Of a stretch of DNA of 8,427 nt, positions 1 to 5,866 are shown in pieces. Source of the DNA: Solirubrobacterales bacterium (GTDB lineage: Bacteria > Actinomycetota > Thermoleophilia > Solirubrobacterales > Solirubrobacteraceae); contig JACCYI010000146.1 in the NCBI GenBank assembly GCA_013696535.1, positions 1 to 8,427 of the forward strand, read 5' to 3'. Made by a program: the position numbers and the translations under genes. The notes under the pieces are model-generated. The model saw only the letters and a list, made by a program, of their open reading frames with translations. It made no database searches and was not told the DNA's origin. Numbering within the stretch: position 1 is the stretch's first letter; the number at the start of each line of letters is the position of its first letter.

Positions 1-102
1 CTGTTGATCCGTCACAAGGGGCTTGCCAGGCTCCGGTTTCCGTCCGGCGGTCCACCTAGGGTGGATCGAACTGAGTCAGAACCCAGAGGAGCACCCGAAC
101 CG

Positions 103-1188
103 ATGGCCACGCAAGACACCACGGCCAACAAGGCCCGAGATACCGCTTTGCAGGGCGCGCTCGCGCAGATCGAGCGTCAGTTCGGCAAGGGTTCCGTCAT
201 GCGGATGGGCGATGAGGGCGCTCAGGTGAAGGTCGACGCCATCCCCACGGGCGCTTTGTCGCTCGACCTCGCCCTCGGCATCGGCGGAATGCCGCGCGGG
301 CGCATCGTCGAGGTCTACGGCCCGGAATCCTCCGGCAAGACGACCCTCGTCTATCACGTCATCGCCGAAGCGCAGAAGCTCGGGGGCGTGTGCGCCTTCA
401 TCGATGCCGAGCACGCGATGGACCCGCTCTATGCCCAGCGCATCGGGGTTGATATCGATGAGCTGCTGGTCTCTCAGCCCGACTACGGCGAGCAGGCACT
501 CGAGATCGCCGACATGCTCGTGCGCTCTGGCGCGGTTGACGTGGTGGCGATCGACTCCGTCGCAGCACTCACGCCGCGGTCCGAGCTCGAGGGCCAGATG
601 GGCGATCAGACCGTTGGCCTGCAAGCCCGGATGATGTCGCAGGCAATGCGAAAGCTCGCCGGCAATCTCAACCGCACGCAGACACTGTGCCTCTTCGTCA
701 ACCAGATCCGCGAGAAGGTCGGCGTGATGTTCGGCTCGCCCGAGACCCAGCCGGGTGGTCGAGCGCTGAAGTTCTACTCCTCCCAGCGGTTGGACATCCG
801 CCGCATCGAGACGCTCAAGGACGGCACGGAGGCCATCGGCAACCGGGTGCGCGTCAAGGTGGTCAAGAACAAGGTGGCCGCCCCGTTCCGGCAGGCGGAG
901 TTCGACATCGAGTTCGGAACCGGCATCTCCACGGAGGGCTGCATCCTGGACCTGGGCATCGAGCACAACGTCGTGACAAAGTCCGGGTCCTTCTTCTCCT
1001 ACGGCGACGAGCGCCTGGGTCAGGGGCGCAACAACGCCAAGAACTTCCTCAGCGAGCATCCCGAGACGGCCAAGGAGATCGAAGCGAAGATCTACTCGGC
1101 GCTTGGCCTCGGTCAGGATCTCGTCAAGCCGATCGATCGGGACGCTGAGGTGGTTCCCGCGCCGGTTGCCGAACCGGCCGTCGCCTAA
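103..1188 (+). CDS. recA: RecA recombinase
   Basis: RecA is the ATP-dependent strand-exchange protein of homologous recombination and the co-protease that triggers LexA self-cleavage in the SOS response. The 361-residue product has the Walker A motif GPESSGKT at residues 73-80, the VVAID Walker B strand at about 147-151, and the signature [14 protein letters not shown] from residue 221. The L1 loop ([14 protein letters not shown]) and L2 loop ([13 protein letters not shown]) are both intact. There is no intein, unlike in Mycobacterium tuberculosis RecA. The length is normal for the family, including an acidic, Pro/Ala-rich tail. I chose ATG 103 because the typical N-terminal helix ([20 protein letters not shown]) begins shortly after it and AGAGGAG lies at 85-91; the frame is open back to a TTG at 4, but that extension does not look like RecA. 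recX follows 6 bases after the stop. No GAAC-N4-GTTC operator is visible in positions 1-102. The function is certain and the start is very likely. Confidence 0.97.
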
Positions 1189-4792: not shown

Positions 4793-4815
4793 GCGGTTGC
4801 CGTCCGGCCGTTGTG

Positions 4816-4829
4816 CGAACATACGTTCG
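4816..4829 (+). promoter_or_regulatory. LexA (SOS) operator upstream of the radical SAM gene
   Basis: The site reads CGAAC ATAC GTTCG, an exact fit to CGAAC-N4-GTTCG and one base from the classic Bacillus form CGAACATATGTTCG. It occupies the 36-base gap after miaB, and its last G is the first base of the GTG start codon at 4829. There is no Shine-Dalgarno sequence between the box and the gene, which would suit a leaderless transcript. In that case GAACAT at 4817-4822, inside the box, sits at -12 to -7 and has the key A and T of a TANNNT element, so LexA would cover the -10 and the start point. From memory, M. tuberculosis Rv2578c, a homologue, appears in published lists of LexA-regulated genes. 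Confidence 0.8.
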
Positions 4830-5866
4830 TGCGATGGAGCAATCAAGAGACGGAAGCTGACTCTCAGGGCCGGCTGCCCGGCAGCGACACCGACGTGGTG
4901 GTCCGGCGCTTCGACGCACCTGAAGCGCTCGACACCCGGTTCTACGAGGTGCGGGCGAAGTCGGCGCTCAACCGGGTGCCCGAGCGATCGCGAGTTCCCT
5001 TTGAGTGGACGATCAACCCGTACCGGGGATGTAGTCATGCGTGCACCTACTGTTTTGCCCGTCCGACGCACGAGTACCTCGATTTCAACGCCGGCCGCGA
5101 CTTTGAGCGCGAGATCATCGTCAAGGTCAACGTCCCAGAAGTCCTGCGTTGCGAGCTTGCACGGCCGGCGTGGGGCAACGGGCACATCGCCATGGGCACG
5201 AACACTGACCCGTACCAGTGGGTGGAGGGTCGCTACAGGCTCATGCGGGGTATCTGGGAAGTCCTGCGCGACGCCGCCAATCCGGCTTCGGTCCTGACCA
5301 AGTCGCCGCTGATTCTCCGCGATGCCGACCTCATGCTGGAGCTCGCTCAGCGCGCTCGCGTGAGCGCCTGTCTGTCCGTGCCGACGCTCGACGAGAAGGC
5401 TTGGCGAGCGACCGAGCCGCACACCCCGCACCCGCGGGCGCGACTCGAGGCCGTGGAGGAGCTCAACCGCCGGGGTATCCCGACCGGCATTCTCATCGCC
5501 CCGCTCATGCCGGGAATCAACGACGACCCGAAGCAGGTCGAGAAGATCCTGGCGCTGGCCGACGAGGCGGGCGCCACGAGCGTCGGCGGCCAGACACTGT
5601 TCCTTCGCGGCGCGACGCGCGACGTCTTTCTCGACTGGCTACGCACAAGTCGGCCGGACCTCGTCGACCGATACGCGGAGCTCTACGCACGCGGCTCGTA
5701 TGCGCCACGCGCGGAGCGACAGCGCATCGAAGCGCCGTTGCGAAAGGCGCAGCGCGTGTCGCCGATGAGCGAAGAGCGATTCTTTCGTCAGAAGGGTCAT
5801 GAGCAGGCACGGCCGGTGGACCCGGTGAGGATCCACACCATGACGATGCAGGAGGCCCTGTTCTGA
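4829..5866 (+). CDS. Rv2578c-family radical SAM protein (SplB-like), SOS-associated
   Basis: This is an iron-sulfur enzyme of the radical SAM superfamily, in the group that includes spore photoproduct lyase (COG1533). The 345-residue product has the SAM-cluster motif C68xxxC72xxC75 in RGCSHACTYCFARPTHEYLD, the conserved GTNTDPYQ stretch, a TKSPLILRD strand, and RGATRDVFLDWL near the C-terminus. I chose GTG 4829 because it gives an MRW-x-x-Q start, as I remember it for Rv2578c-type proteins. A TTG at 4811 would put the LexA box inside the gene, and GTG 4895/4898 would remove conserved residues. The gene has its own LexA-type operator and sits in a recA neighbourhood, which supports a DNA-damage role. 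The last five residues, QEALF (341-345), fit the QxxLF form of a beta-clamp binding motif. The substrate is unknown. The family call is firm; the repair role is inference. Confidence 0.93.
   Translation: MRWSNQETEADSQGRLPGSDTDVVVRRFDAPEALDTRFYEVRAKSALNRVPERSRVPFEWTINPYRGCSHACTYCFARPTHEYLDFNAGRDFEREIIVKVNVPEVLRCELARPAWGNGHIAMGTNTDPYQWVEGRYRLMRGIWEVLRDAANPASVLTKSPLILRDADLMLELAQRARVSACLSVPTLDEKAWRATEPHTPHPRARLEAVEELNRRGIPTGILIAPLMPGINDDPKQVEKILALADEAGATSVGGQTLFLRGATRDVFLDWLRTSRPDLVDRYAELYARGSYAPRAERQRIEAPLRKAQRVSPMSEERFFRQKGHEQARPVDPVRIHTMTMQEALF
5849..5863 (+). other. C-terminal clamp-binding-like motif QEALF
   Basis: These codons encode the final five residues of the radical SAM protein. Clamp-binding peptides in bacterial polymerases and repair proteins typically follow QL(S/D)LF or the looser QxxLF, and are often found at a flexible C-terminus. 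Gln, Leu and Phe are in the right places here, and the preceding residues (about 325-340) look unstructured and polar. The second position (Glu rather than Leu) is weaker than the consensus. The match is short, so its significance depends on conservation in homologues. Confidence 0.4.

Follow-up and report, generated by a model that had tools for sequence, protein, structure and literature searches.

SOS control of SplB-like radical S-adenosylmethionine (SAM) genes is known and has been in print since 2012. In the passages of the sources that bear on it, (i) splB is LexA-controlled, by two motifs, in alpha- and beta-Proteobacteria (PMC3323433), (ii) a radical SAM protein belongs to the core Gram-positive SOS regulon in a seven-species comparison that includes Mycobacterium tuberculosis and Corynebacterium glutamicum, and is under SOS control in Balneolaeota too (PMC7739468), (iii) Bacteroidetes are added to the groups with SOS-regulated SplB-like or radical SAM genes (PMC8565304), and (iv) SplB-like enzymes are linked with ImuB-C operons (PMC3765255). 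Within the same limits, LexA binding and damage induction are reported for vnz_31145, an SplB-like or radical SAM gene of Streptomyces venezuelae (PMC9380542), and for a Streptomyces gene of the Rv2578c family the link to DNA repair is termed speculative (PMC12924846). The subject here is a radical SAM gene of the Rv2578c/PA0069 type, with a LexA operator on its start codon, in a stretch of 8,427 nucleotides from a Solirubrobacterales bacterium (contig JACCYI010000146.1), the whole of which is called the window. Rv2578c and PA0069 are themselves said to be LexA targets; a full-text search of the open-licence literature found no paper linking either with LexA. An initial annotation, made from the letters of the window alone, had proposed, on condition of a conserved box, that an SplB-like enzyme belongs to the SOS response, which is not new in view of what is already published for several groups.

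The explanation favoured here, which as a whole is judged somewhat probable, is that of an SOS gene with a LexA-shut leaderless promoter and a clamp-docked, SplB-fold DNA-lesion enzyme as its product. The sequence shows the operator with its conservation and position, the promoter asymmetry, the radical SAM motif, the predicted fold and the C-terminal motif; promoter function, PafBC action, clamp binding and DNA-lesion chemistry are inferred. With LexA on its operator, the -10 region, transcription start and start codon would all be covered and a leaderless promoter thereby shut; this promoter would consist of a -26-type CGTCCG and, within a LexA half-site, a weak extended -10 (TGCGAACAT). Upon damage LexA would be cleaved, a PafBC-like activator would probably help, and the mRNA would start at the GTG or right beside it. 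The gene would encode a radical SAM enzyme that makes the 5′-deoxyadenosyl radical at its CxxxCxxC motif and reverses or processes a replication-blocking DNA lesion, while at stalled forks or gaps a flexible tail with QEALF at its end would tether it to the beta sliding clamp. Its place would be beside the translesion polymerases, which share the operator type in related genomes. Lesion repair by radical chemistry is a plausible role, and an intrastrand base-base C-C cross-link is a first guess at the lesion.

By sequence and conservation, the box CGAACATACGTTCG at positions 4816-4829 is a LexA operator, and its final G doubles as the first base of the GTG codon at 4829-4831. No Shine-Dalgarno-like sequence is seen from the box to the GTG. 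This start is supported because position 1 of the Rv2578c family profile pairs with residue 1 and because the alignment begins at residue 1 in 63 of 80 homologous loci; the same alignments rule out the in-frame TTG at 4811 as an alternative. Exact copies of CGAACNNNNGTTCG number two in the window (4816 and 1720) against a mean of 0.04 in dinucleotide shuffles, 1 of 200 of which holds at least two, and these counts together with conservation across loci rule out a box by chance. The initial annotation was thus right about an exact box ending on the GTG with no Shine-Dalgarno sequence between; its chance estimate of 0.01 had the correct order of magnitude and was a little low (0.04 by shuffles). 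The second copy of CGAACNNNNGTTCG, at 1720-1733, lies just past recX, without an adjoining start codon or the TG..AT marks described below, and is possibly due to chance.

The box is conserved well beyond the window. A genome scan gave 257 homologous loci; among the best 80, exact GAAC-N4-GTTC stands on the start codon or a few bases off in L001-L024, L033, L035 and L037. Streptosporangiaceae loci carry the box mostly at -22, Micromonospora loci have a one-mismatch form at -23 (family placement of these genera being partly by taxonomy look-up), and L063 and L070 have a two-mismatch site only. In the class of Conexibacter (Thermoleophilia), 58 of 149 genomes hold a family match, and all 30 of the best-scoring loci carry an exact box 5′ of the conserved core. 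Across the phylum (396 genomes, 174 with a match), the best-scoring 30 (group A) have 24 exact boxes and six with one mismatch, and an exact box was accepted in 37 of a further 40 loci (group B), which are part of the matches ranked below group A. The three misses of group B are a contig end (L210), a boxless locus (L189) and a match lying only within codons EQLF (L191), and in a few of the remaining loci the box may lie partly within the reading frame upstream. Distant family members (132-244 bits), represented by 20 chosen lower matches that make up controls C and D and serve as a negative control, have none (0/20). The presence of the box in distant actinobacterial homologues, which the initial annotation had made its condition for a conserved SOS member, is borne out by these class and phylum loci, and scoring the upstream regions of the Rv2578c family for GAAC-N4-GTTC, as it had suggested, reveals enrichment relative to the distant members. 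A conserved GAAC-N4-GTTC operator in the promoter region, the mark of the actinobacterial LexA/SOS regulon, is therefore present, and the related Conexibacter genome G003 has lexA behind a box of its own.

Outside the phylum, the motif differs and the arrangement recurs. In 14 sampled records of the 78 that match in a plasmid collection, GTTC-N7-GTTC stands 5′ of the gene in seven of nine Alphaproteobacteria and CTGT-N8-ACAG in Aeromonas, so that eight of the ten proteobacterial homologues (Alpha- and Gammaproteobacteria) carry their own LexA motif. Gemmatirosa, in the same sample, has neither a proteobacterial motif nor the actinobacterial box, and the three actinobacteria there comprise one exact box, one with one mismatch and Tsukamurella with no exact match. 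With three types of LexA motif involved, the gene seems to be accompanied by LexA control in each case.

Close relatives of the window gene show that the operator carries more than a palindrome. A set of clade promoters was assembled from 69 sources by their M-R-W start; 17 lack that start by pattern (L012, L026, L027 and L038, of which L012 does carry a box, and 13 loci from other clades of the class), and removal of six duplicates and the boxless L025 leaves 45 aligned distinct promoters. Their Thermoleophilia label stems from record titles, some of which give only Actinobacteria, from the class search and from Conexibacter taxonomy. The box begins 12-16 nucleotides 5′ of the M-R-W start in 45 of 46 distinct promoters, 29 of them at -12. 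Aligned on the box, TG at -3/-2 and AT at +4/+5 are each present in 44 of the 45, and TGCGAACAT is entire in 40. T at +5 is invariant (45/45), yet its palindromic mate is A in just 17, and the operator therefore has a directional signal. From these marks we infer that TGCGAACAT is an extended -10 within a LexA half-site and that transcription begins at the start codon, so the leaderless transcript raised by the initial annotation is probable. Two linked features had been passed over there: the operator is asymmetric in its TG..AT marks, and CGTCCG stands at 4801-4806.

The same promoters could belong to an ordinary SOS gene, with a true LexA operator, a promoter elsewhere, and TG..AT and CGTCCG as a class-specific LexA preference or a trace of shared ancestry. 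In its favour, the 45 promoters all belong to a single related group, and 16 of them lack YGTC at -16. That invariant T with its unmatched mate speaks against it, as does the background of the alignment: no base exceeds 26 of 45 at any position from -40 to -17, yet C, G, T and C at -16 to -13 reach 42, 32, 39 and 40 of 45, and shared ancestry alone is therefore not the cause of the marks. Also against it, the LexA sites of lexA and of genes read as recN, uvrA, uvrB and radA in Conexibacter G003 are without TG..AT. In groups A and B (24 and 36 exact boxes compared, four of group B having been dropped), TG is found in 4/24 and 0/36, AT in 8/24 and 12/36, and YGTC at -16 in 0/24 and 0/36; their box lies further upstream, often with TANNNT after it (14/24 and 30/36). 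An ordinary SOS gene is considered unlikely.

The -26-type element upstream of the favoured promoter resembles the site of a known activator. In passages of the literature, the motif given for mycobacterial PafBC is TGTCGG-N10-TANNNT, variants being TGTCAG and TGTCAC (PMC8151990), and PafB contacts the -26 motif (PMC11804915). The arrangement here, CGTCCG-N10-GAACAT, has equal spacing and different letters. YGTC occurs exactly at -16 in 29 of the 45 clade promoters, and at no other offset from -30 to -6 in more than four. The recA gene of the window has the same spacing, and in the 100 nucleotides available before it (window 1-103) an exact LexA box is lacking. At recA loci of relatives (300 nucleotides searched), YGTC-N12-TANNNT is found in 15 of 29, or 20 of 29 if the first T of the -10 is left free, and an exact LexA box in nine, leaving 20 without. 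A PafBC homolog is apparent in relatives: each of the six related genomes searched encodes one open reading frame (ORF) with two fused WYL domains, and the one tested against PafBC (PDB 6sj9) aligned over residues 11-680 with an E-value of 9.8e-24. CGTCCG is likely a PafBC-class activator site, and the radical SAM gene may be driven by a PafBC-like protein. At three loci of Conexibacter G003 (L355, L357 and L358, read as radA, uvrB and uvrA), a LexA box is fused to CGTCCG..TANNNT, and LexA and a PafBC-like factor may therefore compete there.

The start-codon operator also heads other genes. The pattern TGCGAACATNNGTTCG has 62 matches, 34 on the forward and 28 on the reverse strand, and these lie in 19 of the 20 genomes, which were chosen for carrying the radical SAM gene; its reversed control has none. 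Of 30 sites examined, 12 belong to the radical SAM gene; at 15 of the 18 others a start codon at +11 to +18 opens an ORF of at least 80 residues, against 885 of 9000 random windows. The geometry that the initial annotation singled out is therefore real but not peculiar to the radical SAM gene. By sequence, the other targets include Pol IV-like (L371, L377) and ImuB-like proteins; Pfam finds an IMS domain in each of L361 and L365 and a PHP domain, of the kind present in DnaE2, in each of L360 and L369, all four with the same geometry. In relatives, the names uvrA, uvrB, recN, radA, Pol IV and ImuB are sequence readings, Pfam-backed for L360, L361, L365 and L369, and lexA and DprA are assigned by the LexA and DprA models. 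An operator shared with translesion-polymerase-like genes groups the radical SAM gene with translesion synthesis. Similar small proteins of 105-119 residues also stand behind a start-codon SOS operator in several genomes (L378, L383, L393, L398 and also L356, the last with no Pfam or NCBIfam match) and are, by their position, a candidate unknown SOS protein. Two further unknown proteins (L376, L385) and one of HTH/HNH type (L368) likewise begin on TGCGAACATNNGTTCG.

The gene product belongs to the radical SAM superfamily, with PF04055 (Radical_SAM) at 50.2 bits against a cut-off of 29.5 and no further Pfam domain in the protein. Its best NCBIfam match is NF038135 (Rv2578c; 395.8 bits, positions 1-310 of 317), and NF033668 (PA0069 family) ranks third. 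C68, C72 and C75 are the sole invariant cysteines in 27 of 27 sequences; these proteins were picked by their MRW start, and the MRW motif is therefore no independent test. Many relatives (L025-L033, L035-L037, L118, L120-L122 and others) have an apparent intein at the third cysteine of CxxxCxxC, judged by a match split at residue 75, by the NCBIfam intein model NF038136 and by PF14890 in P0089. Their enzyme could be made only after splicing.

The tail of the protein (residues 313-345) is a variable linker with a predicted local distance difference test score (pLDDT) below 50, and it ends in QEALF (341-345), an exposed segment that fits the bacterial clamp-binding consensus QL[S/D]LF or QxxLF as given in passages of PMC12309361. 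Of the 120 closest homologues, 116 have Q-x-x-L-[FLI] at most four residues from the end, and none of 446 other ORFs (best 80 loci) does; an earlier control with a different filter gave 8 of 454, all of them radical SAM tails that the filter had missed. In wider sets the strict motif is found in 75/79, 18/28, 20/25 and 12/14 tails, with eight further loci unparsed, and in 10/20 of a further set, the other ten being variants such as QMSLDL, some off the very end. The motif points to DNA at the replication clamp as the place of action. It bears directly on the notion that the SOS-induced enzyme acts on RNA, nucleotides or protein, for example in damage signalling, and not on DNA. The great diversity of radical SAM substrates and a Pfam assignment to Radical_SAM only would allow this; the clamp motif in nearly all close homologues and an operator type in common with translesion-polymerase-like genes make it quite improbable. 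In the open-licence literature, no paper joining a clamp-binding motif and radical SAM was found, and the sole paper that pairs the sliding clamp with SplB concerns archaeal SplB-like genes beside NreB.

The solved structure nearest to the predicted fold is spore photoproduct lyase (SPL; PDB 4fhc and 4k9r), with 266 residues aligned, a root-mean-square deviation of 3.6 and 12% identity; C140A/S mutants of SPL are listed among the structure matches. C140 of SPL is its H donor. Sequence-level kinship is rejected, as a search found no SPL chain even at E 10 and returned three unrelated chains only. A true SPL ortholog that repairs 5-thyminyl-5,6-dihydrothymine agrees with the fold but not with this result, the 12% identity or the lack of any invariant cysteine of the Cys140 type, and it is considered very doubtful.

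Several observations weigh against a clamp-docked enzyme behind a fused promoter and operator, besides the 16 promoters without YGTC and the missing sequence match to SPL. (i) One of the 46 distinct clade promoters (L025) is boxless. (ii) GAACAT is poor as a -10, the first base of the PafBC motif is C here instead of T, and the -26/-10 spacing alone is insignificant in the window (two sites against a chance mean of 0.74). (iii) YGTC at -16 is found at 4 of the 18 other start-codon sites against 8 of the 12 radical SAM sites; the -26 element is therefore not a general part of the operator, its presence in every such operator being ruled out, and on this comparison it is a further mark of the radical SAM gene. 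(iv) The NF038135 score falls short of the curated cut-off of 430 bits, and the protein is therefore named Rv2578c-type rather than a family member, in keeping with the type given in the initial annotation. (v) Of 146 tails in the wider sets, 21 lack the strict motif; 12 of these are judged close variants (QLTLM, QLRLV and others) and nine have none or a doubtful one. (vi) Of the 20 distant family members, which have no LexA box, 18 carry the clamp motif; this rules out a tie to SOS control and therefore makes the motif independent of it. By this distribution, clamp docking would be an old family property to which SOS control was added later.

The features of the locus are collected in Table 1. 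Upstream of the gene, the window holds recA, recX, rny and miaB, and downstream glyoxalase-like, SDR and FIST genes. A DUF5131 protein (PF07505) at 963-1746 of L366 has a LexA box 51 nucleotides 5′ of its ATG and matches radical SAM mobile pair protein A far below the cut-off; the window protein matches mobile pair protein B, also below the cut-off.

Table 1. Features of the radical SAM locus and the recA upstream region (positions in the window)
Feature	Position	Strand	Remarks and basis
CGTCCG-N10-TAGGGT 5′ of recA	41..62	+	-26/-10 spacing equals that at the radical SAM gene
CGTCCG, -26-type element	4801..4806	+	16 nucleotides 5′ of GAACAT; likely PafBC-like site
TG-C-GAACAT, extended -10-like, nested in operator	4814..4822	+	putative promoter core; clade alignment
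LexA operator (SOS box) CGAAC-ATAC-GTTCG	4816..4829	+	overlaps start codon by one base; exact match, conservation, shuffles
Radical SAM gene, Rv2578c/PA0069 type, GTG start, 345 residues	4829..5866	+	NCBIfam, Pfam, fold nearest spore photoproduct lyase
CxxxCxxC [4Fe-4S] motif, codons 68-75	5030..5053	+	intein insertion point in some relatives
QEALF, codons 341-345, putative beta-clamp-binding motif (QxxLF)	5849..5863	+	homologue tails, published consensus

More tentatively, and with real doubt, SplB-like (COG1533) enzymes may be the clamp-docked lesion-reversal arm of the SOS response, broadly in bacteria, acting next to translesion polymerases where the fork has stalled; in Thermoleophilia, a leaderless promoter that fuses the -10, the LexA operator and the start codon would drive it, often with a PafBC-like -26 element as a second damage input. 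The literature searched gave no substrate or site of action for the family, and the clamp motif would place the enzyme at the replication clamp. If true, an orphan SOS family of several phyla would become a candidate direct-reversal system for replication-blocking lesions. TGCGAACATNNGTTCG followed by a start codon would offer a simple signature by which SOS genes of Thermoleophilia, unknown ones among them, could be found. The fusion of promoter, operator and start codon hints at individual promoters where a PafBC-like activator and LexA come together.

Compared with known systems, the fusion of promoter, operator and start codon with a -26 element, and the clamp motif, are new within the open-licence literature searched. 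The locus shares LexA control of an SplB-like or radical SAM gene with the SOS-regulated splB/COG1533 genes (PMC3323433, PMC7739468, PMC8565304) and vnz_31145 (PMC9380542), whose passages leave the start-codon operator, the PafBC-like element and the clamp motif unmentioned. SPL is the closest solved fold, from which the window protein differs in having no invariant cysteine beyond the cluster and in its low identity. The archaeal SplB-like proteins beside NreB likewise link an SplB-like enzyme, of unknown substrate, to sliding-clamp partners, but it is for the Nre proteins, and not for the SplB-like enzyme, that passages of that source discuss the clamp (PIP) motif (PMC4929162). Relative to the clamp-binding motif in passages of PMC12309361, the putative motif here lies at the extreme C-terminus after a low-confidence linker and is carried by a radical SAM enzyme. 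The mycobacterial PafBC/RecA-NDp promoters, as passages of PMC8151990 and PMC11804915 give them, have a GTC core equally far from the -10; they read TGTCGG and TANNNT, whereas this gene has CGTCCG and a putative -10 that is the LexA half-site GAACAT. The NF038135 (Rv2578c) and NF033668 (PA0069) families share CxxxCxxC and, upstream of most relatives sampled, the LexA box, which in those relatives lies mostly at -22/-23 or -44/-47, whereas here it sits on the start codon itself.
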